Shown here piece after piece: positions 2,272 through 38,860 of a stretch of 64,000 nt of DNA (positions are counted from its first letter, which is position 1; every line of letters begins with the position of its first letter). A program made the translations under genes and the position numbers. A model generated the notes under the pieces. It was not told where the DNA came from. It searched no databases and was given only the letters and a program-made list of their open reading frames with translations. Where the stretch lies: positions 62,001 through 126,000 of the IMG/VR virus record IMGVR_UViG_3300021962_008382; one strand, written 5' to 3'. Origin of the DNA: a virus.

Positions 2272-2297
2272 AATACCACTCTTAATTGGTGGTTCAA

Positions 2298-3629: not shown

Positions 3630-3657
3630 TACCTTCTCCTTTTTAGAAGTTCTAAGA

Positions 3658-3665: not shown

Positions 3666-3667
3666 TG

Positions 3668-4768: not shown

Positions 4769-4804
4769 CCGTATTTCTCCTAAGAGTTTTTTGTTTAACG
4801 TTAT

Positions 4805-4812
4805 TATTTATA
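4805..4812 (-). promoter_or_regulatory. Late promoter of gp22 (TATAAATA)
   Basis: Exact TATAAATA on the minus strand about 37 bases before the gp22 ATG, in the short gap between gp21 and gp22. A GGAGAA ribosome site lies just before the start codon. This lets scaffold be expressed apart from the upstream protease. Confidence 0.8.
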
Positions 4813-4820
4813 TGGCTGAG

Positions 4821-7026: not shown

Positions 7027-7043
7027 AAATCACCCATTAATAT

Positions 7044-7051
7044 TATTTATC
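7044..7051 (-). promoter_or_regulatory. Late promoter variant (GATAAATA) for the prohead core cluster
   Basis: GATAAATA on the minus strand overlapping the end of the portal gene, 18 bases before the small core-protein ATG. It carries the same first-base variant seen near gp4. It would drive the gp67-like, internal-protein and gp21 genes. Confidence 0.5.
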
Positions 7052-8591: not shown

Positions 8592-8609
8592 AACTAGTTA
8601 AATACTCAC

Positions 8610-9188
8610 TTATTGATTATTAAATAAACCAGCGAAATCAACTGTACCGCCAGCTGTTGTGGTGGACGTGGTGAAGTGCTGATACTGCCAGGTAACAGTA
8701 AACTGTGAGATCTGATCGTTAGCACCAAAGTCTAATGCCACTGGCGACAGGTCTACAGGGAACGCGTTAACTAGCTTGTAAGACTTAAGTACGTTACCAT
8801 TTCTATCTAGCTGGAATACGTCTAAATCTCTTTGATACTGAGCTGGCTGTAATCTGCCGGTCTTAGTAGCATAGTCTTCCATTCCACCCATCCATTCTTC
8901 TATAGCATTTCTAATGGACATTTCTGAATCGTTTAGAACGGTAATAGTCCATGGTGCGAAGATACGATCGCCAACAAATTTAACCTCACGGCCGCGATAC
9001 TGCACGACCGCTGGGTTAACTGTCTGACCTGGTAGCTCTGCAACTGAAACTAAGAACGGTGAACGCGCTACGGCAGTTGCTTGACCAGTTACATACGTTG
9101 GGTATGATAACTGTACAGCAAACTGGTTAGGGCGAGCACCACCATTGGTAAGAGCTGATTTAAAACGCTCTACGTTAAATGTAGTCAT
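8610..9188 (-). CDS. gp19: Tail tube protein gp19
   Basis: A 192-residue protein of the T4 gp19 family that stacks in hexameric rings to form the inner tail tube. It starts FNVERFKSALTNGGARPNQFAVQLSYP, has YRGREVKFVGDRIFAPWTITVLND in the middle and ends with the conserved FPVDLSPVALDFGANDQISQFTVTWQYQHF. T4 gp19 is 163 residues; a short Thr/Gly-rich tail is added here. It follows the sheath gene by 12 bases and precedes the portal gene, the T4 order 18-19-20. Confidence 0.96.
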   Translation of the reverse strand: MTTFNVERFKSALTNGGARPNQFAVQLSYPTYVTGQATAVARSPFLVSVAELPGQTVNPAVVQYRGREVKFVGDRIFAPWTITVLNDSEMSIRNAIEEWMGGMEDYATKTGRLQPAQYQRDLDVFQLDRNGNVLKSYKLVNAFPVDLSPVALDFGANDQISQFTVTWQYQHFTTSTTTAGGTVDFAGLFNNQ

Positions 9189-9200
9189 CTATTCTCTCCC

Positions 9201-10874: not shown

Positions 10875-10924
10875 GTTCTTCTCCTTATAATGTGTAATTT
10901 TTCATAATAAAAATCTCTCGTGTA

Positions 10925-10932
10925 TATTTATA
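10925..10932 (-). promoter_or_regulatory. Late promoter of gp18-gp19-gp20 (TATAAATA)
   Basis: Exact TATAAATA on the minus strand about 51 bases upstream of the gp18 ATG. The motif lies in the only sizeable gap between gp17 and gp18. The same bases also read TATAAATA on the plus strand (10929-10936), which probably reflects AT symmetry. Confidence 0.75.
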
Positions 10933-10944
10933 AATAGCAAAATT

Positions 10945-12606
10945 TTAACGAGTATAATTTTCACGTATGAATGCTTGGAGATCTTTATTATATGAGTCTG
11001 TAAGCCAGAGATCACTGCCTGCTACTTCTACTGCATCTTCAGGTACACCATTATCAATAAAGCCGAATGGTGTTAAATCTTCTTCTATATTCTTAATTTG
11101 TTGGCTGTATAAGGCTTTACGGTTATTAGAATTCATTAGATCTTTAAATAACGGGTCGTTAGAGGCCCATGCAAAAAGAACTAAAGTCATTACTAAGTCG
11201 TCATTATATCCTTCATCTGCTTCAAACGACCCTTTATTTTCAACAAATGTTGAGATTTCGGAAATAATATCTTTATCAAAAATTAACAGTTTACTATTTT
11301 CAACCAGAGATTTTAGAGATGAACAACCTATTCTCTTAATCTGTTTGGTTGTTCTAATACCTAGGCTGGAGTTTTTACCGGATATAGATAGCGTCTGACC
11401 GTACCTTGCATCGCTCCCCACCCATATCATATTTTCATATTCTAATTCATTATATATTAAATCAGCAACTTGTTGACCTATATCATTTATCTCAACAAGA
11501 ATATAAGCGTTATTATAATCTTTAGCCAGTTTTACTATAATATCCGGGTACAACAGCGGGCTGATTGTATTATTGCGATATTTAGCTACTACAGAAAACG
11601 GATACTTTGTAGTATCAATAACGGTAAAAGCAGAGTAATCTCCTCCTACCCCTCTTGATGTATCTACTGTTATAAAATAAGAATTATTTAATTGAGGAGA
11701 TTCTAGTATATCTAGATTATCTTTTTCGTATATGTAACTCTTCGGTGAAAGATTAGAAATAACATCAGGGGAGATAAGTGTGTTAGTGGAACCTAAGAAC
11801 TTACACAACACCTCTTGATTAAACTTAACTTCACCTAGAAGTGCTTTCTGCTCTTCAGCCCACTTTAAATCTCTCTTTGGATGTTCGAAATATTCCACTT
11901 TAATTGGAATAAATCCGTTTGTACCTCTTTCTGCTTCATTCCAAAACTTCCAGAAGTGGTTATATCCTAGCGGAGTAGATGTAAGAATGATCTTGGTTGT
12001 TTGACCGGCTGATACTACGGGATATACGGATGTAAAGAATTGCTCTGCGATGTTATTTGGTACAATTGCCACCTCGTCCACATACAGTAAGTTTACTGAC
12101 TTACCACGAATACCAGACTGAGATGTTGCTGCTGTAAATACGGATGACCCGTTCTCAAGCTCTACGTCACCCTTATTCCATGTCTTTATACCCTGCTGCA
12201 TCCACAAAGGTAGGTTTTCATACATTAATTGATAACGAGATAAAATTTCCATTGCACCATCTGATTTGTGTGCAAGGATAGCAACTGTTTTGTTTCTATT
12301 AAAAAGCGTATACCAGAGAACATATGCAGCCACTACCTGGGACTTACCCATCTGTCTAGGCTGCATACTAATAACGCGTCTATTTTCTTGAATTGCATTT
12401 AGAAATCTTTCTTGATAAGGAAAGAGATCAAAAGGAATAAGCATCTCTGAGTCAAGAGATACTATCTGGCAATATTTACGAATAAAATAGATCGGGTCGT
12501 CTTTGCAAATCATTAATTCAGATACCTGTTCTGAGGTATACTGAATTACGAAACCTATTTGCTTGAGTGATCTATTACCGTTGTAGGAGTTTTTACTTTG
12601 AGTCAA
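10945..12606 (-). CDS. gp17: Terminase large subunit gp17
   Basis: A 553-residue DNA-packaging motor. The ATPase domain has PFDLFPYQERFL (adenine-binding region), the Walker A-type motif QPRQMGKSQ at residues 82-90, and Walker B LLYVDEVA with the Asp-Glu at 177-178, followed by the coupling motif ILTSTP. The C-terminal RNase H-like nuclease domain shows FITVDTSRGVGGDYSAF, the ILVEINDIGQQVADLI segment and the DDLVMTLVLFAWA acidic end. Length is close to T4 gp17 (610). It overlaps the gp16 stop by 14 bases. Confidence 0.97.
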   Translation of the reverse strand: MTQSKNSYNGNRSLKQIGFVIQYTSEQVSELMICKDDPIYFIRKYCQIVSLDSEMLIPFDLFPYQERFLNAIQENRRVISMQPRQMGKSQVVAAYVLWYTLFNRNKTVAILAHKSDGAMEILSRYQLMYENLPLWMQQGIKTWNKGDVELENGSSVFTAATSQSGIRGKSVNLLYVDEVAIVPNNIAEQFFTSVYPVVSAGQTTKIILTSTPLGYNHFWKFWNEAERGTNGFIPIKVEYFEHPKRDLKWAEEQKALLGEVKFNQEVLCKFLGSTNTLISPDVISNLSPKSYIYEKDNLDILESPQLNNSYFITVDTSRGVGGDYSAFTVIDTTKYPFSVVAKYRNNTISPLLYPDIIVKLAKDYNNAYILVEINDIGQQVADLIYNELEYENMIWVGSDARYGQTLSISGKNSSLGIRTTKQIKRIGCSSLKSLVENSKLLIFDKDIISEISTFVENKGSFEADEGYNDDLVMTLVLFAWASNDPLFKDLMNSNNRKALYSQQIKNIEEDLTPFGFIDNGVPEDAVEVAGSDLWLTDSYNKDLQAFIRENYTR

Positions 12607-13009
12607 TTATATTAGCCTTCTGCGCACTTATTAATTTCATAAGTTCTGCTGTAGACCCTGCAAATAATATATTGTTAGTTTGATTACCTATCTTTGATGT
12701 AGGTACCTCATCACCTTTTAATTCACGATTCTGCTTTTGCACCGATAGAAGGCTCTTAGCAATTTCGGTTTGTGTCTTAATCAACTGACCGGCTACTTCG
12801 TATGCAGATCCTCTCTCAGACCTCTTAGCGTTATCTACCATGTTATTGATGAGATCGTTATTAACATCAATAAGTTTTCTAAGAGTATTTCTTGCCAGAT
12901 TAAAATCACTAGTAATCTCATCAGTATTATCTTTCTCGATAATAGGAGATATTTCTTGTATAGCAAGTTCTACATTGAAAAGATTGGAAAGATTTTGATC
13001 CATTAACAT
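12593..13009 (-). CDS. gp16: Terminase small subunit gp16
   Basis: A 138-residue helical protein between gp17 and gp15, the T4 place of gene 16. The central coiled coil (ITSDFNLARNTLRKLIDVNNDLINNM, then GSAYEVAGQLIKTQTEIAKSLLSVQKQNREL) is the oligomerisation core that forms rings recognising concatemeric DNA and stimulating gp17. The first ATG overlaps the gp15 stop by one base (TAATG); a second ATG two codons later is also possible. T4 gp16 is 164 residues. Confidence 0.88.
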   Translation of the reverse strand: MLMDQNLSNLFNVELAIQEISPIIEKDNTDEITSDFNLARNTLRKLIDVNNDLINNMVDNAKRSERGSAYEVAGQLIKTQTEIAKSLLSVQKQNRELKGDEVPTSKIGNQTNNILFAGSTAELMKLISAQKANIIDSK

Positions 13010-13758
13010 TAGAAATCCTCAAACATTTCAATGAAATCAATATCATCCCCTGGTACAGCAGTTCCTGGATCTACCGTTGCACTGTATCTTAGTATCTGTT
13101 GAGTTCTCGCTTCATCATTAAAGATATTAGCAATAGAAGTACGAATGAGACTTTGTCTGCTCGCCGGTCCAAAGAAGTTAAGCTTGAGTGTAAAATTAAG
13201 TGTCCATATAATAGATCTACGAGAAGTAAAATTACCTTCATAAGTATCTTCGTAAGCCACATTATCTAATACGATAGATAGGTCGTTCTTAATATTCATA
13301 CTCGGAACAGCATTCAATGTTAAGTTAAAATCAGGATTGAAATAAGGAAGAATCTGCTCTATTACCTGCAGACCGTCATCTTGATTTTTTGAATACAGGT
13401 ACAACGACATAGAAACATTATATGGTGTTGGTACAAATTGAACAGTACTGGTTGACGTTGAGGTATTATTTACTCTATTTTTTTGAACCAGACTTAATTT
13501 TCTATTTGGGTCGTAAGACAGACCGGTCATTTCAAACGCCATTCTAGGCAAACTTATTTGAAATTTAGCATTTGGAAGATCTGGCTCAGCTTCAACTCTT
13601 GCTAGAAATTTTTGTCTAGGTGCGTACGACAAGGGTACTTTCAACGTCTGTACAACGTTACCAGACGAATCTAATCTATCGAGGTAGATATCGTTAAATA
13701 TATTACCAAAAGCTACAACCGATTTTCGAATCGTACCCCAGTAGAATTTTTGAAGCAT
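13009..13758 (-). CDS. gp15: Proximal tail sheath stabilisation protein gp15
   Basis: A 249-residue tail terminator matching T4 gp15 (272). It caps the assembled tube and sheath and forms the connection to the neck. It begins MLQKFYWGTIRKSVVAFGNIFNDIYL, a gp15 signature, and has VPLSYAPRQKFLARVEA and the RRSIIWTLNFTLKLNFFGPAS block typical of the family. Its ATG overlaps the gp14 stop by one base. Order 13-14-15-16-17 is conserved. Confidence 0.94.
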   Translation of the reverse strand: MLQKFYWGTIRKSVVAFGNIFNDIYLDRLDSSGNVVQTLKVPLSYAPRQKFLARVEAEPDLPNAKFQISLPRMAFEMTGLSYDPNRKLSLVQKNRVNNTSTSTSTVQFVPTPYNVSMSLYLYSKNQDDGLQVIEQILPYFNPDFNLTLNAVPSMNIKNDLSIVLDNVAYEDTYEGNFTSRRSIIWTLNFTLKLNFFGPASRQSLIRTSIANIFNDEARTQQILRYSATVDPGTAVPGDDIDFIEMFEDF

Positions 13759-14501
13759 TATAGAACCTCTCCAAATGGGTTAGTTTCAGAGAAATCTAGA
13801 ATACCTGATTCGTCCTCAAAGTTTTCATTTTGTGCAGAGGGGTCAATTACATTAAGCAGGAAGTTTTCTAGGATAAGCGGAACTTCGGCTTCTGCTTCAA
13901 TTAAGAATCTTGAATTATCTTCTAAATCTAAAGTATATTCTTCAGTAATAGAAATAGATTCTATATCTGCTTGATCATTTATTGAGTCGATAGTTGTGTT
14001 GAATCTTTCTGACGAGAACTGCATTAGCTCGCATTCCAGTTTGTATACGTAAAGCTTACCAACCTGGAAAAACGGGTCGCGTGTCTCGACTCTTCTAATC
14101 TCAAAGAAAGAATTTGTAAGAGGGAAGAATAGAACATCACCTTCAGCAGGTCTTGTAGTAAGCGCTGCTGTTCCTGATTTAGCTACTACATCATCCCATC
14201 TTCTTCTCGATACGATAAATGTTGCAGTATCTCTTATCTCTACCCCAAACTTAGAAAGAAGATCACCCTCGCCTTCGAAACCGGTTACGTTACTCATATA
14301 CATCTCCAACGGAAATGCATTATCGTATTTTTGTAAGGCGTCTTCTGTAAAAATCTGGTCTTTATTTACAGCTGTTTTCGGCAGATAATATACATCGAAT
14401 CCATATATTCTCAGGCATTCGATTATGATGTCCTCCATGAGCAGCTGCTCTGAGGCTCTTCCCCCGGGTATACCAGACTGAAAATAAAAGTTAGTGGGCA
14501 T
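13758..14501 (-). CDS. gp14: Neck protein gp14
   Basis: A 247-residue neck protein equal in size to T4 gp14 (256). With gp13 it seals the portal after packaging and provides the site for tail attachment. Visible blocks are the start PTNFYFQSGIPGGRASEQLLMEDIIIECLRIYGFDVYYLPK and the SFFEIRRVETRDPFFQVGKLYVYKLECEL segment, both characteristic. It precedes gp15 with a one-base overlap and lies 68 bases from gp13; that gap shows no clear promoter or hairpin. Confidence 0.95.
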   Translation of the reverse strand: MPTNFYFQSGIPGGRASEQLLMEDIIIECLRIYGFDVYYLPKTAVNKDQIFTEDALQKYDNAFPLEMYMSNVTGFEGEGDLLSKFGVEIRDTATFIVSRRRWDDVVAKSGTAALTTRPAEGDVLFFPLTNSFFEIRRVETRDPFFQVGKLYVYKLECELMQFSSERFNTTIDSINDQADIESISITEEYTLDLEDNSRFLIEAEAEVPLILENFLLNVIDPSAQNENFEDESGILDFSETNPFGEVL

Positions 14502-14569
14502 AGACGGTATCTTTGCGGTGGCCGTAGATTTCAGTTACTGCTATAATGCATATGTCGAACATGAGAGAA

Positions 14570-15523
14570 TCAACCTACAAACATATCAACGGGTAACTGA
14601 TATGTTTTTTCTGCTTCATCTCTAAGTTCTTTTAACTCTTCAGTAGCTTCATCAAAGATCTTTTGACCATTCAGTGTAACACCCCCGGGTAATTGAACAC
14701 CTTCAAATTTCTTTAGATTAACACCCCATTGTTGCTTTAATAATGCAGTTGCGTATCGTTTGAGAAAATGATCGTTATATACGTCAGTGAATGTACTAGG
14801 ATCAAGAATTCTATACGCTTCGATAACAACGTAGTCTCCGATTTCAACATCAGTATTCCAGTCCATATCGATGTACAAACGATTTTGATGTCTATTAAAG
14901 CGAGTAGGTTTTTGTCCTACAAGAATATCATTGATAAGATTAAGCTGCGTCTTAACCTGACTGTAATATATTATATCGGTTGATTGTAAGGAATATAGAT
15001 CGTTTAGCAGGATTTGATATCTAACATCAAACATATCGATTCCTCGAGTCTTGGAGGAAAACGGCATGATCTTTACAACACCTGTAATGTTATCATTTAA
15101 TGAAAGATATTTGTTATCAAAATTACCTAAAGTAACAGAACTAATCACCGCAGAAGTACTTGACGTACCCCCTGAAAACGTCTCACCAGGGGTAAATGTA
15201 CCGGATACATTCTTAATGGATATTCTATTAGCAGAAATATTAGATATTACAGTAGCAGTCGCACCAGAAGATACACCTGTTAGTCTTTCACCATTTAGGA
15301 AAGATGCAGCATTAACCCCGGTAATTTGAAGAGTACTTGCCGTTATCTTCTCAGAAAGATATACAAGCTCAACCGAATCATAGTGAAACTCGCGATAAAA
15401 TTGAAAAGCTTCGTCAATTCTATCTTCGATCTGGTCGTCATCAATATTAATTTCAAGTACAGGATGACCTAATTTTCTCAGACAATAATCTATAAGTTCT
15501 TGTCTAGATGAAGGATTAGCCAT
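14570..15523 (-). CDS. gp13: Neck protein gp13
   Basis: A 317-residue protein matching T4 gp13 (309). It begins PSSRQELIDYCLRKLGHPVLEINIDDDQIEDRIDEAFQFYREFHYDSVE, the family signature, and ends KKFEGVQLPGGVTLNGQKIFDEATEELKELRDE. Around residues 65-130 it carries a Ser/Thr/Gly-rich beta insert (NGERLTGVSSGATATVI, PGETFSGGTSSTSAVI) of the kind found in other structural proteins here, including the 2035-residue protein. The insert is probably a surface-exposed accessory loop domain. An AATAAATA late-type promoter precedes the gene. Confidence 0.95.
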   Translation of the reverse strand: MANPSSRQELIDYCLRKLGHPVLEINIDDDQIEDRIDEAFQFYREFHYDSVELVYLSEKITASTLQITGVNAASFLNGERLTGVSSGATATVISNISANRISIKNVSGTFTPGETFSGGTSSTSAVISSVTLGNFDNKYLSLNDNITGVVKIMPFSSKTRGIDMFDVRYQILLNDLYSLQSTDIIYYSQVKTQLNLINDILVGQKPTRFNRHQNRLYIDMDWNTDVEIGDYVVIEAYRILDPSTFTDVYNDHFLKRYATALLKQQWGVNLKKFEGVQLPGGVTLNGQKIFDEATEELKELRDEAEKTYQLPVDMFVG

Positions 15524-15546
15524 AAATTTTCCGTAAATTTAATTAA

Positions 15547-15554
15547 TATTTATT
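15547..15554 (-). promoter_or_regulatory. Late promoter variant (AATAAATA) for the neck cluster
   Basis: AATAAATA on the minus strand 23 bases upstream of the gp13 ATG, one base off the T4 late consensus. It is the only promoter candidate before the gp13-gp17 run. Confidence 0.5.
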
Positions 15555-15562
15555 CTTTTTAC

Positions 15563-15796
15563 CTACTCATGAATAGGGACTATTTGATATCCTATCAGTT
15601 TTTTAGAGTCAAATACTTTTACGAAGTTATTCGTTTTAAAAGTTATATCACTTCTACTTTGAAATAGACTTTCAAGATGAGTTACAGCGTGATCGGGGTC
15701 GGTGAGTGTACCATTGATTGTTAAGTCAGGGGTAAATTCAATCAAGTGCATTCTGCCGTTTCTATCAATCACGTAAATCTTTTTAGTACTGTTCAT
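15563..15796 (-). CDS. Small protein of unknown function
   Basis: A 77-residue protein (KKIYVIDRNGRMHLIEF at the start, VKVFDSKKLIGYQIVPIHE at the end), probably mostly beta. No domain recognised. It follows the oxygenase/APS-kinase-like gene by two bases, so it is the last gene of the accessory island, just before the neck genes. Initiation at an ATG is likely. Genuine coding is supported by tight spacing and fully open reading frame. Confidence 0.55.
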   Translation of the reverse strand: MNSTKKIYVIDRNGRMHLIEFTPDLTINGTLTDPDHAVTHLESLFQSRSDITFKTNNFVKVFDSKKLIGYQIVPIHE

Positions 15797-15798
15797 AG

Positions 15799-16722
15799 TT
15801 ACCTCTTAGTATTGATACGTCTAATCATATCTTCAATTGCTAGGTTATTTATTGCAGTATATCTGCTATCATACATCTTAGGTTCTTGAAACTCTTCAAA
15901 TACCTCATCAGTATCATCTATCCAGAATAATAAATCAGGATTTAAAATGCTGCGTTGTTCGTCGAGAGGGCAGACTGAATTAATTAGTACAATATCATCT
16001 GCGGCCGAATTACGAGCCATAGTTAAAAGTCTGTTAGTATGTCGTAACCTACCTCCTTCTGTATAGTCAATATCTTTATGTATTACTCTCTGTTCTCTAC
16101 TATTAAGTACTCTGCACTGATCAAAATGCTTTGTTAGTTCATCTACTACTAGCTTTCTACTCGAACCGGGCTTACCCATTACTAAAACTCTGAAGTGTCT
16201 ATCAGTTATTAATCTATAATATTGAACTAAATTTGAATCCAGTGTATGGAATACCCACGGTCTTATAAAAACACCTTGATTTGGTTCTAGCATTACGTTA
16301 GTGTGTAGATCCCATTCGAATAAGTTTCTGTAGTTAAATTCATAACCCTCTAAAGCAGATTTTGCATCTATTGCCCCGTTTTTATTTTTATGATGAAATA
16401 AATTTAAGGTATTTTTTTCAAGTGCTACTATGAAACACCATTCATTGAGAGAGTTAAAATCTTCGAAATGAATAATGTTGTTGAAGGGTCTACGAAATAT
16501 TCCAGATCTTTTATGATCAATTATTACGCGTTCGCCCAGTACTCTACCTAATATAGGTTCTAACCCGCTTAAAACCATATTAAAATTATCTAGCTCGTAA
16601 CCGTACTCTTTTTCGCTGAACCTAATATCTCTGACTACAGCTGCGCAGCGCTCTACATCTCCAGCTGGAAAAAATCCATCTGCATGGAGCATTTTTACCA
16701 TGGGTCTATTAGATGCTTTCAC
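15799..16722 (-). CDS. Two-domain protein: oxygenase/cupin-like N-terminus and APS-kinase-like C-terminus
   Basis: A 307-residue protein. Residues 1 to about 175 look like a double-stranded beta-helix: LNLFHHKNKNGA, EWDLHTNVMLEPNQGVFIRPWVFHTLD. No clean HxD iron motif is seen, so oxygenase activity is uncertain. Residues from about 176 resemble P-loop kinases of the adenylylsulfate kinase type: RVLVMGKPGSSRKLVVDEL, then DIDYTEGGRLRHTNRLL and IVLINSVCPLDEQRSIL. The P-loop is degenerate: the usual G-K-T is S-R-K here. If active it would make PAPS, the sulfate donor for the two sulfotransferases in the window; that is inference. The start is GTG, chosen because GGAG lies seven bases before it; the next ATG (16701) has no such site. 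Confidence 0.6.
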   Translation of the reverse strand: MKASNRPMVKMLHADGFFPAGDVERCAAVVRDIRFSEKEYGYELDNFNMVLSGLEPILGRVLGERVIIDHKRSGIFRRPFNNIIHFEDFNSLNEWCFIVALEKNTLNLFHHKNKNGAIDAKSALEGYEFNYRNLFEWDLHTNVMLEPNQGVFIRPWVFHTLDSNLVQYYRLITDRHFRVLVMGKPGSSRKLVVDELTKHFDQCRVLNSREQRVIHKDIDYTEGGRLRHTNRLLTMARNSAADDIVLINSVCPLDEQRSILNPDLLFWIDDTDEVFEEFQEPKMYDSRYTAINNLAIEDMIRRINTKR

Positions 16723-17470
16723 AAACTTTCTCCGCTATAGATCTGTAAATATCGCTTATTTTACCGGTATTAAAAGCTATAGGTATTCCTTGATCTGCTT
16801 TTATTCTAATTGATGTCTGAAGAGGTATCTTACCGAGAACTGGTACTGAATACTTCTCACTTAAACTATCAGCACCATTTTCCCCAAAAATATAATCGAC
16901 ATTATTACAATGGTTACACAAGTGTCCACTCATATTTTCTACAATACCCACTATCTTAATATTTCTTTGTACGAATAGCTCAATACCTTTCTTACAATCT
17001 AATAATGCTACATCTTGAGGGGTTGTTACGATTACAGCTTTAGCGTGTGGAATAATCTCACAAAGTGATATCTGAATATCACCGGTACCCGGGGGCATGT
17101 CAACTATAAGATAATCCAATTCACCCCATACCGTATTTAATAATAAGTTTTTAAGGGCAACAGTGGCCATTGGTCCTCGCCAACTTACAGCTTGATCATC
17201 TCTAATACTACTAGCTATCGACATTATTTTTAGTTGGTAAGCTTCAAACGGTAAAGTAAATTTTTTATCTTCTGTAAGATTATATGGTTGATTGTTCTCC
17301 AATCCGAACATCATAAACTGACTAGGACCGTATATGTCAGAATCAAACATACCTACTTTAAGATTTAACATAGAAAGAGAAGCTGCAAGATTAGCTGCAA
17401 CAGTACTCTTACCCACACCTCCTTTTCCAGAGGAAACTAAAATAACATTTTTTATTTGCTCTATACCCAT
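16709..17470 (-). CDS. Mrp/NBP35-type Fe-S cluster carrier ATPase
   Basis: A 253-residue P-loop ATPase of the Mrp/ApbC/NBP35 family. It shows the deviant Walker A GKGGVGKST at residues 15-23, the switch DSDIYGPSQ, SWRGPM near 97, DMPPGTGD at 124-131, TTPQDVALLDCKKG, and VENMS followed by CNHC at 185-188. The CxxC pair is the bridging Fe-S site of this family. It lacks the N-terminal DUF59 domain found in many bacterial Mrp proteins. Family members load Fe-S clusters onto target enzymes. The ATG at 17470 has GGAAT upstream; an alternative ATG seven codons earlier (17491) does not. It is an unusual gene to find inside a virion module. Confidence 0.88.
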   Translation of the reverse strand: MGIEQIKNVILVSSGKGGVGKSTVAANLAASLSMLNLKVGMFDSDIYGPSQFMMFGLENNQPYNLTEDKKFTLPFEAYQLKIMSIASSIRDDQAVSWRGPMATVALKNLLLNTVWGELDYLIVDMPPGTGDIQISLCEIIPHAKAVIVTTPQDVALLDCKKGIELFVQRNIKIVGIVENMSGHLCNHCNNVDYIFGENGADSLSEKYSVPVLGKIPLQTSIRIKADQGIPIAFNTGKISDIYRSIAEKVCESI

Positions 17471-17471
17471 A

Positions 17472-18407
17472 TTATTCCGAATAAATGTCATGGTTAATAA
17501 TATTACACCAATGTTTCAACTCAGTTTTTGAGAAAGACATTATACCATCGTTTATTCTATCTGTAAATTCGCCGTCTACACCTCCGAGCCTGATAGGGTT
17601 ATATACAGGCTGTCTATCTTCTTTCCTAAAAATCCTGAAATGATCTGGATATGTTACATTTTTCTCGAAAGTTGAGCCCATGAATACAGCACCGGGCTTA
17701 TCAAACGCGCGCGCCATATGCTGACCAACCGAATCACACCCTACAAAATAATCACACTCACTAATTAAAGCCATAAACATTCGAAGATCAGTATTAAGAT
17801 TTTGAAAATCTACCGATATATTATCGCCCGGATGTCTAAGTTCCTTAGGACCGAAAAAGAATATTAAACTATCTTTGCTAATATTTTCTATCATATAGAG
17901 ATAGTCGTCGCAATCTAAGCTCCGATGAGAAGTATCATAAGGCCTATTATTATTAATCTGCATTGAACTGCCGTAAGGCTGAAATACAATTACTTTACTC
18001 TTATTTTTATTCGTTTTAAACTCCTGTATTATTCTTTTAACCGAATTTTTTTCGTATGTACTTAGATATAGATTAGGCTTGGTAAGATCTGAATGATCTT
18101 CGGTCTTATTTATTTCTCGATCAAAAGCTTCAGTAAGAGAAATCTTCTGATTATAATAATCATAAAGATAGTAAGGCTCTGGGCACACAACAATATTAGG
18201 CTTTACATAATTATCAAATATATCTTTCTGATGTATACCTATAGTTCGCTGTTGAAGTAGAGGATGACTCCAGTACAGACTCTCCCACCCATGAACAAGC
18301 ACCTTAAAGTTATTACCCGGGTTGAGACGATGAAATTTCTCTAAAGCGGGTATTGCCGTTATAACCCTACCTGCACCACCGTTAATTATAAAAGTTGTAT
18401 TAGTCAT
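17472..18407 (-). CDS. GT-B glycosyltransferase, heptosyltransferase (GT9)-like
   Basis: A 311-residue protein with the layout of GT9 enzymes. It opens FIINGGAGRVITAIPALEKFHR, matching the first GT-B loop (GxGD/R...ALP). The middle has VIVFQPYGSS, and the C-terminal donor domain has SECDYFVGCDSVGQHMARAF, the same pattern as the heptosyltransferase D-S-x-x-x-H-x-A segment. The donor sugar and acceptor are unknown. It overlaps the upstream gene by eight bases and the Mrp gene follows almost at once, all as one operon. Confidence 0.72.
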   Translation of the reverse strand: MTNTTFIINGGAGRVITAIPALEKFHRLNPGNNFKVLVHGWESLYWSHPLLQQRTIGIHQKDIFDNYVKPNIVVCPEPYYLYDYYNQKISLTEAFDREINKTEDHSDLTKPNLYLSTYEKNSVKRIIQEFKTNKNKSKVIVFQPYGSSMQINNNRPYDTSHRSLDCDDYLYMIENISKDSLIFFFGPKELRHPGDNISVDFQNLNTDLRMFMALISECDYFVGCDSVGQHMARAFDKPGAVFMGSTFEKNVTYPDHFRIFRKEDRQPVYNPIRLGGVDGEFTDRINDGIMSFSKTELKHWCNIINHDIYSE

Positions 18408-19065
18408 TTATTAACATATTCCAGGGGGCAATGATACCCTCACAATGTATACTTTCTACTTCCATTAATTTAGATTTATCAATATACATGAACATAGCTT
18501 CTTCAATAGTTATGCCTTGAACTAAGTGTTCATAAAATGATTTGGATATTAAATTACCCATATTATCAATTAGCGTACCACATACGGACCAAAGTCTTGT
18601 GTGTAGGGATATAGCATTATAATCGTTAGTATGGCGAGTTTTAAATACATAACAGTCGTGTAGATTATTATAAAAATTAATATCGAATTGATCACTTAGT
18701 TTATATCGACCAGATATCTTAAAGATTCTCTTTGGAGCTAATTTATTTAGTATTATTAGATCTAAAGCTACTAGTAACATATATGCTTCGCCAGCACCTT
18801 TTGCACCTGAATTGTTTAGCTCTTTACAAGGTGTTCTACTTCCAATATCAATAAAGAAGGTTACATTTTTTGAAAGCTCATTATACCATTTATTTTCAAG
18901 AGGAAAAGAAGAATTATCTATTAAGATAATTATTGCAGCTGGATCTTTTTTCTTTATAGAATCTATAGTTTCGAGTGTTTGTAGATACCGATCACTTATC
19001 GAAATATGTCCCCATGGTGTGTTTATAGTAGATGTGATAATAAAGATATTATTTAGTATACTCAT
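18400..19065 (-). CDS. Glycosyltransferase-like protein, GT-A type, uncertain
   Basis: About 221 residues from the ATG at 19065, which has a GGTGG site upstream; a longer reading frame from 19110 would overlap the previous gene further. It starts NIFIITSTINTPWGHIS and has AAIIILIDNSSF, with RIFKISGRYKLS in the middle, the pattern of a nucleotide-sugar fold with a conserved K-x-x-G-R-Y. No DxD motif is certain. From memory the SGRY segment recurs in small phage and bacterial glycosyltransferase-like proteins. Grouping with the GT9- and GT2-like neighbours supports a sugar-transfer role. Confidence 0.5.
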   Translation of the reverse strand: MSILNNIFIITSTINTPWGHISISDRYLQTLETIDSIKKKDPAAIIILIDNSSFPLENKWYNELSKNVTFFIDIGSRTPCKELNNSGAKGAGEAYMLLVALDLIILNKLAPKRIFKISGRYKLSDQFDINFYNNLHDCYVFKTRHTNDYNAISLHTRLWSVCGTLIDNMGNLISKSFYEHLVQGITIEEAMFMYIDKSKLMEVESIHCEGIIAPWNMLIND

Positions 19066-19831
19066 CCCACCAGGTTTCCCATTTAATAAAAGGGTCTTTC
19101 TGCTGATCAAACTGTAAATGTAATGCTAGACTTGGTATAGGATTAAATCTTATCGCTCGATTATCTAACCAAATATTCCATATGGTGTTTGATTCTTCAT
19201 AATGTTCTGTTCTAGGTTTAAGATAATTCCCGTTATATTTAAGTGCCAAGGTCTCAAACAGCCCCCAGTTAGATTTAAATATCTGAGGTGTAGTGAATAA
19301 GACATTTGTAGTAAAAACACCGGTACGCCAATGCCTGTTAGAGCCATGTACAATAAAATCCGTTCTACTTGGGGGATTATATTCACTTGGTTCATCAAAA
19401 GGGTACAATACTATATCATCTCGCTTTAATCTATCAGAGAAGGTATAAAAACTATCAATCATTTCTTGAATAGCAGAAGGCTGGTGCAGATAGTCATCTT
19501 CAACGGAGTATACTAAATCTGCATGACTATCTCTACATAGCAACCATTGTTGATGCGCTGAATAATTGTACCCCTGCTCCGGTAAAGATATAAACTCACC
19601 GTTAACTTCTTCTATTATTTGTTTTATCTTACTAACAGTTTCCTCAGAGGAACTATCATCTAATACTGTTAATTTGATAAGTACATCGCGTACATTTTTT
19701 ATACTATTTACAAGCGATCTAGTACAGCCTACAACAATATCATTTTTTGGAATATCACAGTATCTTACTCTCCAATCTACGTGAACGTTAGTTCTGTCAC
19801 AGGTTCTTAAGATAATATCTAATGTTTTCAT
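19049..19831 (-). CDS. Glycosyltransferase family 2-like protein
   Basis: A 260-residue GT-A fold protein. It begins LDIILRTCDRTN, has VLIKLTVLDDSSSEETVSKIKQII (the first nucleotide-binding strand and acidic turn) and HADLVYSVEDDYLHQPSA, where EDDY takes the place of the DxD metal site. A C-terminal segment LKPRTEHYEESNTIWNIW may hold the acceptor residues. It lies in the accessory island between a sulfotransferase and two more glycosyltransferase-like genes. Acceptor unknown. Confidence 0.75.
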   Translation of the reverse strand: MKTLDIILRTCDRTNVHVDWRVRYCDIPKNDIVVGCTRSLVNSIKNVRDVLIKLTVLDDSSSEETVSKIKQIIEEVNGEFISLPEQGYNYSAHQQWLLCRDSHADLVYSVEDDYLHQPSAIQEMIDSFYTFSDRLKRDDIVLYPFDEPSEYNPPSRTDFIVHGSNRHWRTGVFTTNVLFTTPQIFKSNWGLFETLALKYNGNYLKPRTEHYEESNTIWNIWLDNRAIRFNPIPSLALHLQFDQQKDPFIKWETWWDEYTK

Positions 19832-19849
19832 GACTTTATTATTTCAACA

Positions 19850-20620
19850 TTATTTACGCCAAACTTCTAAACCATGATACTTATTTAAAATGTCCGGGGG
19901 TAGGATAAAATCCCTAGCCTTGAATTCTACTCGCTTTCTTACATCATGTAGCTTTATACCGATTTCCTGATCATACTCATCCCAACTTGCTTCTACATTG
20001 TTAAAATCATGCTGAAAATAAGGCTCATCAATAAAATTATACAGGGCTTTTAACATTTGCTCAGGTTGTTTAGCTAGTTGCTCATACTCTAAGATAAAAA
20101 GTAAATTTTTTTCTAGACCGGTTATTGCTTGCTTAATACCCACATAAGGAAAACCTACTACACCGGCTTCTGAAAAAAGGGATTCTGCTCTGGAATAAAC
20201 CGAACCTGAAAGACCCCCGGTTACTGTATTAGTTGAGAAAGGATTGCGTCTGTGCGCTAGTTCAAAACTATCCAAGACCCAGTTAATATCTCTAACACAT
20301 ACAATAAATTTAGATTTAGGGTAAAGATCTTTTATAACACCCGTTAAATATGTCCAAGCGCGATTAGTATTAAAAATAATCGGCTTATCAACATCTTGAT
20401 AGAAACCGTCAAACAACCCGGCAACTATATTTTTTCTTCGCTGTACAGGAACCTCTGCTTTCGACCCGGGGCTATCTTGTGTAGCCTCAATTACCCCTTT
20501 TACTAAATTAGCTAAAGGGTCGGTGATAGAGGAATGAAAGCGGGGGTTCTGTCTTAGTATTGAGGTAAGAAGGGTTGACCCTGATCGCGGTAAGCCAGTT
20601 ATAAAATGATATTGTTTCAT
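19850..20620 (-). CDS. Sulfotransferase (PAPS-dependent type)
   Basis: A 256-residue sulfotransferase. The 5'-phosphosulfate-binding loop is GLPRSGSTLL at residues 9-18. The 3'-phosphate-binding segment is CVRDINWVLDSFE at 108-120, followed by RRNPFS. LEYEQLAKQPEQMLKALYNFID is the typical C-terminal helix of the Sulfotransfer_1/3 families. Such enzymes move sulfate from PAPS to hydroxyl or amino groups of sugars, peptides or small molecules. It overlaps the upstream TPR gene by four bases (ATGA). A second sulfotransferase lies at 38159-38860 and an APS-kinase-like domain at 15799-16722. Confidence 0.87.
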   Translation of the reverse strand: MKQYHFITGLPRSGSTLLTSILRQNPRFHSSITDPLANLVKGVIEATQDSPGSKAEVPVQRRKNIVAGLFDGFYQDVDKPIIFNTNRAWTYLTGVIKDLYPKSKFIVCVRDINWVLDSFELAHRRNPFSTNTVTGGLSGSVYSRAESLFSEAGVVGFPYVGIKQAITGLEKNLLFILEYEQLAKQPEQMLKALYNFIDEPYFQHDFNNVEASWDEYDQEIGIKLHDVRKRVEFKARDFILPPDILNKYHGLEVWRK

Positions 20621-21972
20621 AATTTACTCATTAATTTAAGTACTTCTTGTTTAACATTATTAAGCGGTGTGTGCCAATCTCTCACTTTAGTTTGTTTGTG
20701 AACTTGAAAATTGTCACCATACCAAGGGGTAGTGGTACCTTTATGCGAAGTGGACCAGATATAGTATTCAGCAATAGGTACAACAACAAAGCATGTCTTT
20801 CCTATCGCTCCTGCTGCATGTACTAAACTGGTGCAGCTGCTTACAATACAATCCATTTGATCAATAAAATCTAAAGTATCCTCCCAAGTATCAATTCTAC
20901 TGCCTAAGTCAATACAACCTGGGTGACCATCTTCTTTATCAATGTAATAAACCTCTGCACCCTCAGGTATATAGCTGAGCAACAACTCAAGAGGTATCTT
21001 GCGGTATTCATCTTGGGAAAAATATGGATTACCGGAACATTTAATACCTATCTTAAATTTGTCACTATTGATTTTATTTTTAGGATTCCTTACCGGGATA
21101 AGATAAGGTTTTCGCCAAAGCTTATCCTCAGTTAAATTAAGATACCCAGGCAAGCTCATCATAGGAGTCCATAGCTGTCTTCTATCTATAGAGTATGTTT
21201 CAGTTATTACTTCATATCCGTTGCGACGAAACAGACTAACTGTATCCTCTCTATACTTTGACCAAGTAGAATATAATATTGGTCTCATACCTAGATCTTT
21301 AATATGATCAAAGAATCTTATGTTAATTATCTCGTCACCAATACCTCCCTCACCATCAACGTAAATAATTCTGCCTGGTTGAATTGTACCGGACCATTTA
21401 GTCATACCTAAAGCATCTTCAAATCTTCCGTTCTTAGGTTTAATAGAGCCCATGAACGCCAGTACACCTTCAGCGATCCTTCCTTCTCTTAATACCTTTC
21501 CGCTTAAAGCATTCTTCATATCATCAGCTTTTTCAGGGTGTTTTTCAGCCAAAGAAAGTAACAAATCTTCGGAAGTTTTTCTATCACCCATTAAAGCTAT
21601 ATTAAATGCTCTTTGTGTTTGAGTTTCAAAATCATCTGGGGTTAATTTTAAATTAAGATCGATATAGAAAAGAGCTTTTTCCGGCTGATTCAATGCATTA
21701 TAGGCTTTATATAAATTAGCGCGAGCAATGTAAAGTTGATCGGCGTTTTCAGCTCTAGAGTAAGCAGCCTCTGCACATTTCAAGTAAAGAGGTCTATGCT
21801 CTGCTTTTAGGGAAAGATATCCAAGTGTATCAAAATCTTCTACTGAATCTGCACGCTTAAAGTAATGTTCAAGCATTTCAAAAACGATTTTTCGTTTTTC
21901 ATTACCAAGCAAATCCATTACAACAGTAGTTAAATCTTGGATCTTAAATTCTTTATTCTTTAATGACGACAA
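20617..21972 (-). CDS. TPR-repeat protein with GT-B glycosyltransferase-like C-terminal domain
   Basis: A 451-residue protein. Residues 30-190 form helical pairs with TPR spacing (LYIARANLYKAYNALNQPEKALFYIDLNLKLTPDD, AFNIALMGDRKTSEDLLLSLAEKHPE). Residues 200-451 look like a GT9/GT41-type domain: IIYVDGEGGIGDEIINIRFF is the first GT-B loop, followed by KIGIKCSGNP and the donor-side MDCIVSSCTSLVHAAGAIGKTCFVVVP. TPR plus glycosyltransferase is the arrangement of O-GlcNAc transferase-like and many bacterial protein or surface glycosylation enzymes. The target is unknown; a protein acceptor such as a fibre is plausible. Confidence 0.72.
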   Translation of the reverse strand: MSSLKNKEFKIQDLTTVVMDLLGNEKRKIVFEMLEHYFKRADSVEDFDTLGYLSLKAEHRPLYLKCAEAAYSRAENADQLYIARANLYKAYNALNQPEKALFYIDLNLKLTPDDFETQTQRAFNIALMGDRKTSEDLLLSLAEKHPEKADDMKNALSGKVLREGRIAEGVLAFMGSIKPKNGRFEDALGMTKWSGTIQPGRIIYVDGEGGIGDEIINIRFFDHIKDLGMRPILYSTWSKYREDTVSLFRRNGYEVITETYSIDRRQLWTPMMSLPGYLNLTEDKLWRKPYLIPVRNPKNKINSDKFKIGIKCSGNPYFSQDEYRKIPLELLLSYIPEGAEVYYIDKEDGHPGCIDLGSRIDTWEDTLDFIDQMDCIVSSCTSLVHAAGAIGKTCFVVVPIAEYYIWSTSHKGTTTPWYGDNFQVHKQTKVRDWHTPLNNVKQEVLKLMSKL

Positions 21973-22510
21973 GTTTCACCCACAATTCTTCAATAATATT
22001 ATTATGTTGTTTTAAATAAGCTTCTACTTCATTTCGCGGCATGCCTACAAACTGATCTTTAAATTCTTTAGAAGGTATGTAATTCCAGTCTAAAATCTCA
22101 AAATCAACACCAAAATAAAAACCTAATCTCGAAGAAGCAGCGCCCTGCTCTTCGCACAGTCTGTTGTGTTTTTTACTAAATAAAAGCAGACCACCAACAG
22201 TTACTGGTCTACGATGAGTGGGATCGTCGTAGAAGTAATCGTGTCGATGATGGGGTACACGTATATCGATAGTAGCACCGTGCTTGCAGACTCGATACAG
22301 TTCTTGCAAGCAATGGAAGTAGCCCTCTCCTAGATGCTCTAATACATGATGGGCTACAACTACTTCGACGGAATTGTCCGGGAAGGGGAAAGGATCTTTT
22401 TCTAAATTAAAACAATAATCTGGATTTTCTCTAGCATCATAATCACAGGTTACGAAACCTTCAATTTTTGTTGACCCTGCACCAATATTAATCTTCATAA
22501 TTTTATCCAA
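21953..22510 (-). CDS. SAM-dependent methyltransferase (class I)
   Basis: A 185-residue methyltransferase of the Methyltransf_11 type. MKINIGAGSTKIEGFVTCDYD is motif I followed by the acidic residue that binds the SAM ribose; PFPDNSVEVVVAHHVLEHL is motif IV with the usual HVLEH. It also has LQELYRVCKHGATIDIRVPHH. This subgroup is frequent in bacterial and phage surface-polysaccharide clusters, where it methylates sugars or lipid-linked intermediates. A shorter start at the MKIN methionine, four codons in, is possible. It overlaps the next gene by 20 bases and is the first gene of the accessory operon. Confidence 0.8.
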   Translation of the reverse strand: MDKIMKINIGAGSTKIEGFVTCDYDARENPDYCFNLEKDPFPFPDNSVEVVVAHHVLEHLGEGYFHCLQELYRVCKHGATIDIRVPHHRHDYFYDDPTHRRPVTVGGLLLFSKKHNRLCEEQGAASSRLGFYFGVDFEILDWNYIPSKEFKDQFVGMPRNEVEAYLKQHNNIIEELWVKLVVIKE

Positions 22511-22553
22511 GTAAAAATAACAAATTAAATTATATAGTATATTTTATTAAAAA

Positions 22554-23903
22554 TCAATACTTTTGAATACCAAGTGAGTGTAATCTTCCAGCACTTACTT
22601 CGTACCAGCCAACAGAACCCCCTACGACAGAAACGGGCGATGATCTTGATGATGACTGGTTTTCCCCTAACATACCGTCGGCGTTATTACCCCAAGCCCA
22701 AGCTGTTCCATTTCGTCTTACTGCTAACGAATGACCGTATTTACCTGCGCTTATTTGACACCAGTCAGTAAATCCTCCTACCACGGAAACCGGTGATGTT
22801 CTATCAGTAGCACTATTATCCCCTAACTGACCATTGGCATTACGACCCCAGGCCAGTAGGCTACTATTACCTACAATACCTAGCGAATGACAATACCCAG
22901 CACTTACTTGACTCCAATTACTAAAGCCTCCTATGATAGATACAGGTGATGAGCGGCTAGTAGTTGTATTATCGCCTATCTGTCCGCAGTTATTCCTTCC
23001 CCACCCCCATGCTGTACCGTTCTGTCTTACGGCTAATGAATGACCACCGCCAGCACTTATTTGACACCAGTCGGTGAAGCCACCCACAACTGATACAGGC
23101 GAGGATTTGCTAACAGTAGTATTATCACCTAGTTGACCGTCAGTAGCACAACCCCAACTCCACACCGTACCATTAGTTCTTAGTGCAAGGGAAAACTTAA
23201 ATCCGGCACTTACTTGACACCAGTCAGTAAACCCTCCTACCACAGAAACCGGGGATGATCGTGGTATATTAGTACTGTTATTACCTAACACACCATAATT
23301 ACCAAACCCCCATGCCCAAAGAGTACCATTCTCTCTTAAACCTAAGGAATGACAGAATGCAGATACCTGACACCAATCGGTAAAACCTCCTACTACGGAG
23401 ACTGGGGAGGATCTATGTAAATTACAATTATCACCTAAATTTCCGCTACCATACTGCCCCCAACTCCATGCGGTGCCGTTATTTCTAACTGCCAATGAAT
23501 GATTAACACCGGCGCTTATATCATACCAGTCAGTAAAACCACCTGCAACCGAAACGGGGGAGGATCTATCATTAACATCGCCCAACCCGAGTTTGCCTCG
23601 ATAATTGTCACCCCACCCCCACGCTTGACCTGACGTACAGTCCTGTCGTAAAATACGGTTGTCTAGAGACATCCAACAACCAGCACCGGCTACTACCGGT
23701 ATACAGAGAGATTGTACAAATATTACTGTACCTACTGAAATACTATTAGTAGCTTGATCAGGTAAATCACCCGTATCAGACACTACTATTGAACGATTAG
23801 TAGTAGCATTGCTAGTTTCAGCAGCGAGTACAACCATCTCGGTTACTTCAGAGTTGGCTGTTAAATTTGTTATACAAGTTTGAATTTCACTGAGTGTTGG
23901 CAT
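22554..23903 (-). CDS. RCC1-repeat beta-propeller fibre protein F
   Basis: A 449-residue protein with a head of about 90 residues and then seven RCC1-type repeats of about 50 residues to the C-terminus. Each repeat follows the pattern WxWGxNxxGxLGDN, SSPVSVVGGFTDW, CQVSAGxxHSLAVRxNGT. The seven core turns read WGDN, WGQY, WGFG, WGCA, WGRN, WGRN, WGNN. Seven repeats are what closes the RCC1 propeller. The head lacks the YYY/W motif of most paralogues and ends WMSLDNRILRQD, like protein D (25263-26666). It is the last gene of the array. It shares an 84-base identical stretch with the neighbouring gene E. Function inferred: virion adhesin. Confidence 0.85.
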   Translation of the reverse strand: MPTLSEIQTCITNLTANSEVTEMVVLAAETSNATTNRSIVVSDTGDLPDQATNSISVGTVIFVQSLCIPVVAGAGCWMSLDNRILRQDCTSGQAWGWGDNYRGKLGLGDVNDRSSPVSVAGGFTDWYDISAGVNHSLAVRNNGTAWSWGQYGSGNLGDNCNLHRSSPVSVVGGFTDWCQVSAFCHSLGLRENGTLWAWGFGNYGVLGNNSTNIPRSSPVSVVGGFTDWCQVSAGFKFSLALRTNGTVWSWGCATDGQLGDNTTVSKSSPVSVVGGFTDWCQISAGGGHSLAVRQNGTAWGWGRNNCGQIGDNTTTSRSSPVSIIGGFSNWSQVSAGYCHSLGIVGNSSLLAWGRNANGQLGDNSATDRTSPVSVVGGFTDWCQISAGKYGHSLAVRRNGTAWAWGNNADGMLGENQSSSRSSPVSVVGGSVGWYEVSAGRLHSLGIQKY

Positions 23904-23904
23904 T

Positions 23905-37438: not shown

Positions 37439-38166
37439 TTGCGAGATTCTCTCAGTTCATTTGTATAAACCCCGTGTCTCGTACTTTGAGCTATTCGTAT
37501 ACGCTCTATCTCTCGGAATTCTTTTTTACTCATACTACGAATAATAGGTTCTTTAGATATTTTATAAATTTCTCGATGAATTGGTATAGCTACCACTATA
37601 GGTGTACCAGCATTAAGAACACCGTCAAAGTTAGCAGTGTGCCAAATTGCTGGGAAGTTGACTTCTTTTACATATGTATCTGTGTCTACTAAACCAGCTA
37701 GACATGTGAAGTGAGCTTGCTCTACGTCATTAATAATGGGCAGAAATAACGTCGACCACCCGGGCGCGGTCTTTACTACCCACCAGTTAAGAAATTTAAT
37801 TGGTGGTGCCGGGTACCCGGGCGCAGCAGAGCCTCCAATCTGATCAACATTATGAAACTCTACTGACTTGACGGTCGGTCCGTTTTTAGCTTCAATAATA
37901 GCACAAGTAGAGCTAGATCGTATACCAACATCAGCTTGTAACGGAATAACAAAACCGATTGACATTGCGTCAAGTAGCGGCATGCATTTTTTTGCAGTTA
38001 ACCCAGGTCGTCCAATACTATCGATACTATCTGGTAACGTAGGTTTTATCCTCTTAAACCAATCTGGAATGCACTTCGCAGCTGGCTTAGGAGGAAGTAA
38101 TGATCCTTCAAATTCTGGGTGACACGTAAACTCGATTATAGGGGATTTGCGCCATAAATTAAACAA
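37435..38166 (-). CDS. Protein of unknown function, paralogue of 36704-37438
   Basis: A 243-residue protein starting IIEFTCHPEFEGSLLPPKPAAKCIPDWFKRIKP, where the Pro-rich strand and PDWF are typical of a small family found with bacterial and phage glycan genes. It has the same middle and end pattern as its neighbour (LSL-type strand, KTAPGWSTLFLP, FPAIWH, GTPIVVAIP). It overlaps genes on both sides by four to eight bases. No catalytic motif is identifiable. Confidence 0.6.
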   Translation of the reverse strand: MFNLWRKSPIIEFTCHPEFEGSLLPPKPAAKCIPDWFKRIKPTLPDSIDSIGRPGLTAKKCMPLLDAMSIGFVIPLQADVGIRSSSTCAIIEAKNGPTVKSVEFHNVDQIGGSAAPGYPAPPIKFLNWWVVKTAPGWSTLFLPIINDVEQAHFTCLAGLVDTDTYVKEVNFPAIWHTANFDGVLNAGTPIVVAIPIHREIYKISKEPIIRSMSKKEFREIERIRIAQSTRHGVYTNELRESRK

Positions 38167-38860
38167 AAGACCTCTCCACGAAGGTTATACCTTTCTTTTC
38201 AAAAAAATCATAATCAGCTTTGTAGAACGCTTTAATTCGAGCCGCCTGTTCTGTAGTTACAGTATCATAATAGTCTGCTGCATCAGTGCTGTTCTGTCTA
38301 CCTGCAGAATTATAAGACGGTAAATCTAACAGCGGGACTAATTTGTTATATTCAGCTTCATAATCATGGTAATTAAGTAATACTGTATTATCATTGATAT
38401 ATTCAGTTTGTAGCGAAAGAAGATCTACAGTTGTAAAAAACGCTCTAGATTCTAGAGCAGTTAGATATTCATCTAGAGTAACATTATTTAGTGTGGGTTT
38501 TTCATCGATATTAAATTTCTTTCCCCAAATTAAATGAAATAGCGCAGCGCCTCTTGAATATACTTCAAAGCTTAGTTTAGGGTCGGTACGAGCTTTTTCC
38601 CATTGCGAAATAGAATATCGCCAACCAGATACAAGTCTTTCTATAGGGTCTCTGTAGAATGCGTAGTGGGTTAGTTTACTATAATCTATTTCTGAAAAAA
38701 ACTCTCCCATAACACGCTGTAGCTGATCTTTCTTAATATGTGTCCAGACGCTAGCGTATTTAGATCGACCGTGTTTCGCCTGATATGCTAGCCGAACAGT
38801 AGTAGATCCTGTTTTAGGGATTTCTAAAAATAAACAACCTGTTGATTCGTTAATTATCAT
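38159..38860 (-). CDS. Sulfotransferase, Sulfotransfer_2-like
   Basis: A 233-residue sulfotransferase. The 5'-phosphosulfate loop is IPKTGSTT at residues 14-21 and the 3'-phosphate segment is FYRDPIERLVSGW at 68-80, both in the exact spacing used by carbohydrate sulfotransferases of the HNK-1/chondroitin and heparan-2-O type. It differs from the sulfotransferase at 19850-20620, so two independent acquisitions are likely. It overlaps the upstream hydroxylase-like gene by one base, implying co-expression. The acceptor may be a hydroxylated or glycosylated fibre, or host polysaccharide. Confidence 0.87.
   Translation of the reverse strand: MIINESTGCLFLEIPKTGSTTVRLAYQAKHGRSKYASVWTHIKKDQLQRVMGEFFSEIDYSKLTHYAFYRDPIERLVSGWRYSISQWEKARTDPKLSFEVYSRGAALFHLIWGKKFNIDEKPTLNNVTLDEYLTALESRAFFTTVDLLSLQTEYINDNTVLLNYHDYEAEYNKLVPLLDLPSYNSAGRQNSTDAADYYDTVTTEQAARIKAFYKADYDFFEKKGITFVERSFV

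Follow-up and report, generated by a model that had tools for sequence, protein, structure and literature searches.

The stretch of DNA analysed here (the window) comprises 64,000 nucleotides, corresponding to positions 62001-126000 of a 158,915-bp virus contig (IMG/VR record IMGVR_UViG_3300021962_008382). The record carries T4-like genes, including gp32 (Pfam) and the neck genes gp13 and gp14 (PHROGs). A block of predicted modification enzymes on the minus strand of the window is flanked by the gp13/gp14 neck genes (13758-15523) and by RCC1-repeat and tail-fibre genes (22554-31406). The block encodes a methyltransferase (MT), a tetratricopeptide repeat (TPR) protein with a glycosyltransferase domain (TPR-GT), a sulfotransferase (ST1), smaller glycosyltransferase-like proteins, an Mrp/ApbC-type ATPase and a two-domain protein, part of which resembles adenosine 5'-phosphosulfate (APS) kinase (Table 1). 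An earlier note on this DNA had proposed that an APS-kinase-like domain supplies 3'-phosphoadenosine-5'-phosphosulfate (PAPS), and that two sulfotransferases, three to five glycosyltransferase-like enzymes and a methyltransferase, encoded close to fibre genes, could decorate fibres, capsid or host glycans with sulfated sugars.

Gene linkage across related phages

A profile search with TPR-GT and subsequent gene mapping yielded 44 clusters at 90% identity. MT and RCC1 genes were counted in the 39 clusters with at least 3.5 kb of upstream sequence, and ST1 and kinase genes in the 34 clusters with 4.5 kb on both sides; the contigs are fragments, and related phages do not constitute independent samples. 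MT lies directly upstream of TPR-GT in all 39 clusters, RCC1 genes are found nearby in 37 of them, and ST1 is present in 30/34. Searches seeded with the two-domain protein, ST1 or the Mrp ATPase also led to contigs with the syntenic block. In the reverse direction, the matches listed for an RCC1-seeded search (the closest relatives, so that the share is no unbiased rate) comprised 81 loci, three of them annotated phage records, and TPR-GT was recovered in 59 of these 81 although contigs are short. For 14 RCC1 records lacking TPR-GT in the stretch examined, the gene was found elsewhere in two.

These partners occur in at least eight clearly distinct gene orders, including one with RCC1 on the opposite strand (L117), and in two phages, one of which is the isolate BUCT-ZZ01, the glycosyltransferase and MT form a single open reading frame. 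Versions of the module are carried by the cultured Synechococcus phages S-SRM01 and BUCT-ZZ01, the order in the former being fibre-RCC1-TPR...RCC1-sulfotransferase. For whole genes, dS is saturated, and dN/dS amounts to ~0.03-0.12 where measurable. The comparison of gene co-occurrence suggested in the earlier note thus gave a strong signal in several gene orders; on this genomic evidence, the co-location of the module genes is not a product of chance.

The predicted enzymes and the supply of PAPS

TPR-GT (20617-21972) has no Pfam match, and within its family the Glyco_transf_9 model weakly detects two of 22 members (best E 0.0075); since this match is absent, we class the protein as GT9-like by fold, without assigning it to the Pfam GT9 family. 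The AlphaFold (AF2) model has a pLDDT of 88.5, the alignments underlying the structure models being 13-16 sequences deep, and its best Foldseek matches are SPINDLY and OGT, which combine TPR and GT-B domains. The catalytic half is nearest to GT9 structures (VIA-align), with Z scores of 15.7 for 3tov and WaaF, 14.9 for TibC and 14.1 for WaaC, and an rmsd of 3.3 over 229-235 aligned residues versus 3tov and 1psw. The motif E-x-G-x-G-D-E, which contains the Asp of GGIGDE (D213), is unvarying in 22 diverse members sharing 31-84% identity with the window protein. D213 sits 12 residues past the aligned start of WaaF, and from this offset in the structural alignment we infer that it corresponds to the catalytic Asp of WaaC and to Asp-110 of TibC, the base of the latter enzyme (PMC4358343). 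According to the model, therefore, TPR-GT joins a TPR domain to a glycosyltransferase of the heptosyltransferase type, with a GT9 fold that Pfam misses. None of 63 pattern matches in 84,980 genomes was confirmed as a bacterial relative, in a pattern-limited search that does not prove a phage-only distribution.

The remaining glycosyltransferase-like genes in the block are less well supported: 17472-18407 and 19049-19831 have weak family matches, and 18400-19110 has none. In the family of 17472-18407, GGAGR is kept where GT9 enzymes have GD, and the protein is possibly inactive or has a changed chemistry. No transmembrane segments were found in the module enzymes, all of which look soluble.

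ST1 matches Sulfotransfer_3 with 57.8 bits (cut-off 27 bits) and contains both the 5'-phosphosulfate loop (PRxGS/T) and the 3'-phosphate motif (R...S). The PAPS-binding residues P11, R12, G14, R110 and S118 are unvarying in 19 homologues, down to ~25% identity, and by these intact motifs ST1 is a predicted PAPS-dependent sulfotransferase; this assignment, like that of MT, agrees with the earlier note. Compared with solved structures, the ST1 profile has its nearest matches in protein-tyrosine sulfotransferases (E 3e-14). The GEETR stretch of the tyrosylprotein enzymes aligns to SITDP/ITSP in the ST1 phage family, and thus their catalytic Glu is not kept. ST2, the second sulfotransferase of the earlier note, belongs to a different family and likewise has intact PAPS motifs (PKTGSTT and RDPxxRxxS, recognized by eye), and its relatives in the viral collection are limited to one other contig, which is 100% identical. 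ST2 is therefore placed outside the conserved module: it stands as a sulfotransferase and was rejected as a pathway member, having neither a conserved neighbourhood nor relatives beyond the identical contig.

The APS-kinase-like part of the two-domain protein is restricted to residues ~175-307 and has an APS kinase fold (Z 17.4 to 7yq0). It matches neither PF01583 nor TIGR00455, the curated hidden Markov models for APS kinase, and its P-loop reads GKPGSSRK (checked in the DNA) compared to GxxGxGK[ST], i.e., Walker A is not intact. The P-loops of homologues read GKPSSSRK or GD-GANRK, and fused homologues in L062 and L064 retain GRPGQGKT. The kinase-fold domain is under purifying selection (dN/dS 0.06 and 0.29 versus two relatives), and since it is still evolving under constraint, it looks like a retained pseudoenzyme and not like junk. 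An active APS kinase was rejected for want of the Gly-Lys-Ser/Thr core, and PAPS supply by this protein is not supported because the P-loop is broken; hence, the earlier note was right about the fold and not about the supply. Host PAPS may serve ST1. The N-terminal ~174 amino acids harbour conserved HFE and H motifs and occur as a standalone protein in relatives. This domain has no Pfam or PDB sequence match and a low-confidence predicted structure, and the idea of a metal-dependent (2-oxoglutarate (2OG)-Fe(II)) oxygenase is therefore hypothetical.

Other APS-kinase-like genes were found in the record and in its relatives. An intact paralogue outside the window (record 43510-43962; P-loop GLPGSGKT) is 37% identical to the window domain and scores 35.9 bits against PF01583 (cut-off 21.1 bits) across ~90/152 positions, and 29.7 bits against TIGR00455 (cut-off 138.7 bits). 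In relatives such genes often directly follow ST1. They occur in 18 of the 34 clusters complete on both sides and always together with ST1 (18/30 versus 0/4 without ST1; weak statistics), and in the distant L058 a kinase scoring 65.1 bits, well above the Pfam cut-off, lies 108 bp from the sulfotransferase. Some are fused to an NMN-adenylyltransferase-like nucleotidyltransferase (L098:8897-9700, L121:12415-13242). A DUF2061 membrane domain is repeatedly found near or fused to sulfotransferase-linked kinases (L038:10762-11448, L032:12270-12470, L055:11894-12340). The Mrp/ApbC ATPase, located inside the span treated by the earlier note and unmentioned there, pairs with the two-domain protein in relatives, and the two stay together in L062 and L064, where TPR-GT was not seen.

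Table 1. Features of the modification block and its surroundings, with positions in the window.
Feature	Position	Strand	Evidence
T4 gp14-like head closure, module boundary	13758..14501	-	PHROG head closure Hc2 E 1.1e-72
T4 gp13-like head-tail adaptor, module boundary	14570..15523	-	PHROG Ad2 E 7.2e-42
Two-domain protein: conserved N-terminal domain and C-terminal APS-kinase-fold pseudokinase (predicted)	15799..16722	-	Fold, P-loop reading, relatives
Mrp/ApbC-type Fe-S carrier P-loop ATPase	16709..17491	-	Pfam ParA (NUBPL) E 8.3e-89; co-occurrence
GT9-like protein, GGAGR in place of GD	17472..18407	-	Pfam Glyco_transf_9 E 8.8e-4 (below cut-off); PHROG 8954
Optional module gene, glycosyltransferase-like by eye only	18400..19110	-	No family match
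GT2-like glycosyltransferase, weak	19049..19831	-	Pfam GT2 E 0.005; kept in module
ST1, PAPS-dependent sulfotransferase (predicted)	19850..20620	-	Pfam Sulfotransfer_3 E 2.5e-15; PAPS motifs
TPR-GT: TPR domain (~10-190) and GT-B/GT9-fold glycosyltransferase (~195-451)	20617..21972	-	AF2 model, fold comparison
MT, S-adenosylmethionine-dependent methyltransferase	21953..22510	-	Pfam Methyltransf_11 E 4e-7
Three RCC1-repeat beta-propeller proteins, putative tail adhesins	22554-23903, 23905-25260, 25263-26666	-	Pfam RCC1 E 2.4e-51 for 22554-23903; alignment
Tail-fibre-type protein among RCC1 genes	26669..27292	-	PHROG tail fiber protein E 5.1e-15
Three more RCC1-repeat proteins	27328-28704, 28701-30059, 30063-31406	-	Translations; homology
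ST2, second sulfotransferase, different family, accessory	38159..38860	-	Pfam Sulfotransfer_2 E 4.8e-10

RCC1 proteins as candidate acceptors

Six RCC1-repeat genes and one tail-fibre-type gene adjoin the module, in keeping with the reported proximity to fibre genes. The RCC1 beta-propeller proteins are probably tail adhesins; PHROGs files them under DNA metabolism, which probably is a misannotation. We give roughly even chances to the reading that 15799-22510 represents a late-gene module, which modifies the adjacent RCC1 proteins by glycosylation and then by methylation and sulfation, where the acceptor protein, the sugar, the order of steps and the biological benefit are inferred. RCC1 proteins are favoured as the target because they are constant neighbours in both search directions, the TPR domain is of a protein-holding type and the enzymes look soluble. 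Capsid or host glycans, also considered in the earlier note, are less favoured, given these soluble enzymes and the fact that RCC1, MT and TPR-GT are the most constant partners; what holds of that proposal is the tie of glycosylation and sulfation to the tail-fibre region, as seen in the co-occurrence.

In such a pathway, the TPR domain would hold an RCC1 protein in the cytosol, and the GT9-type domain would glycosylate an RCC1 side chain, probably with heptose taken from the ADP-heptose of the host. The small glycosyltransferases might lengthen this sugar in some phages, MT and ST1 would cap the glycan with methyl and sulfate groups (the latter from host or phage PAPS), and the modified adhesin would enter the virion and tune receptor binding, stability or shielding. 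Regarding the sugar, sister modules encode proteins with best NCBIfam matches to HldE kinase, HldE adenylyltransferase and HldD epimerase (hldE1, hldE2, hldD), as well as a WbuC-type cupin. These ADP-heptose genes and the GT9 fold together point to heptose, which probably is the attached sugar. An epimerase at record 10366-11286 has a heptose epimerase model as its best, albeit weak match (62 versus 274.6 bits). A wider formulation, namely a widespread phage system for cytosolic protein heptosylation, in which a TPR-guided GT9-type enzyme acts on RCC1 adhesins and methyl and sulfate groups are subsequently placed on the glycan to yield sulfated glycoprotein adhesins on virions, is put forward tentatively and appears clearly less probable than the module reading itself.

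Several observations weigh against RCC1 modification. No hldE homologue was found in the record (tblastn), and consequently a heptose donor would have to come from the host; a host with heptose-containing lipopolysaccharide (LPS) could be a source of ADP-heptose. The Pfam GT9 model matches just two of the 22 TPR-GT members, and weakly. Moreover, a few RCC1 records lack TPR-GT, such as the 100.6-kb L064 (these records may be fragments), the phages that link the genes are related and do not count independently, and others have read similar phage clusters as altering the host O-chain or capsule (PMC7029224, PMC7824862).

The latter view leads to the main rival explanation, according to which the enzymes put sulfated and methylated sugars on host LPS or capsule and thereby block superinfection or alter adsorption. 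In pelagimyophages, glycosyltransferase genes and rfaE-type genes that adjoin the fibre genes have been read in this way (PMC7029224), as have cyanophage clusters of epimerase, cupin, PfkB, nucleotidyltransferase and glycosyltransferase genes (PMC7824862), and the record itself contains a second sugar cluster (see below). Yet, the module includes no membrane-bound glycosyltransferase, flippase or ligase, its enzymes look soluble, and neither the constancy of RCC1 as a partner in both search directions nor the fusion of a protein-binding TPR domain to a glycosyltransferase is explained; we therefore rate host-surface modification as rather unlikely, while the most serious of the alternatives. 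Direct sulfation of RCC1 or fibre proteins, on tyrosine or some other side chain, with no glycan involved and the glycosyltransferases acting separately, would fit the kinship of the ST1 profile with protein-tyrosine sulfotransferases. It is at odds with the loss of their catalytic Glu and with the tight link of ST1 to the glycosyltransferase and MT, which suggests a shared product, and we consider it improbable.

Similarly improbable is a mere gathering of unlinked accessory genes in a hypervariable host-recognition region. Such a view accounts for the differing gene content between phages and for the sporadic occurrence of ST2 and some other genes. For RCC1, MT, TPR-GT and ST1 it is already largely refuted by the invariant MT-TPR-GT pair, the near-constant RCC1 genes, the recurrence of the same partners in several orders and the two glycosyltransferase-MT fusions. 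The self-contained sulfation pathway of the earlier note, with PAPS from the domain in 15799-16722, is in our view very improbable: the APS kinase fold, the kinases that often directly follow ST1 and occur only with it (weak statistics), and the L058 kinase next to its sulfotransferase speak for it, but the P-loop is broken and no APS kinase family matches, the intact paralogue is encoded at a distance from the module and scores below the NCBIfam cut-offs, and an NMN-adenylyltransferase-like domain is found joined to related kinases.

RCC1 modification as outlined above resembles several known systems. Like the autotransporter heptosyltransferases TibC/AAH (PMC4358343), TPR-GT has a GT9-type GT-B domain with an unvarying first-loop Asp and would act in the cytosol on a repetitive adhesin, and ADP-heptose genes occur in sister phage modules. 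In contrast, the phage enzyme has TPR where TibC has an N-terminal barrel, it is phage-encoded and linked to RCC1 propellers, a methyltransferase and a sulfotransferase, and its donor and acceptor are putative. With OGT/SPINDLY (GT41), the TPR-containing nucleocytoplasmic protein O-glycosyltransferases, TPR-GT shares a TPR superhelix followed by GT-B, whereas its catalytic domain is structurally nearer to GT9 than to GT41, without a detectable sequence family match. In mycobacteriophages, as far as summarized in PMC12619734 (citing Freeman et al. 2023), the C-termini of capsid and tail-tube proteins are modified; there too, phage enzymes act on virion proteins, while here the candidates are RCC1 tail proteins, and sulfation and methylation are added. 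The cyanophage and pelagimyophage sugar clusters (PMC7029224, PMC7824862) likewise lie beside tail fibres and comprise glycosyltransferases, epimerases, a PfkB kinase, a nucleotidyltransferase and a cupin, but have been read as modifying the host surface. The core of RCC1, TPR-GT, MT and sulfotransferase was not found described in these two papers (term searches returned neither sulfotransferase nor RCC1), and a literature search combining phage sulfotransferase, tail fiber and glycosyltransferase retrieved no paper from the collection searched.

Phage sulfotransferases have been annotated repeatedly, and their function is stated to be unclear (PMC10580990); the module could give them one. Because they form part of a single conserved module, next to which a candidate substrate is encoded, their role is testable in cultured phages grown on laboratory hosts. 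Should the RCC1 proteins prove to be this substrate, aquatic T4-like phages would have sulfated glycoproteins as their tail adhesins, which is relevant to adsorption and to the stability of virions, and the combination of TPR and GT9 would define a new class of protein glycosyltransferase.

Further features of the record

Close to the fibre genes, 39469-40545 encodes a protein of proline-rich repeats of the PGNPxPPNPGSYTPGNP type. The second sugar cluster (record 2020-15986) contains GT2, C-methyltransferase, epimerase, PseC-like aminotransferase, 2OG-oxygenase-like, FkbM methyltransferase, GNAT and GT1-like genes. Cargo at record 16042-24390 and 30694-31713 includes a TonB-dependent receptor, a DUF1552 (HXXSHH) protein with a look-alike neighbour and a di-haem cytochrome c peroxidase (CCP/MauG); these genes are odd for a T4-like phage contig and possibly stem from a host. 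A host assignment from the TonB receptor was rejected, since its matches in gammaproteobacterial metagenome-assembled genomes (31-34% identity) are too weak. Finally, QueC-, QueD-, QueE- and FolE-like genes, recognized by eye at record ~51.8-59.8 kb, suggest a 7-deazaguanine DNA modification.

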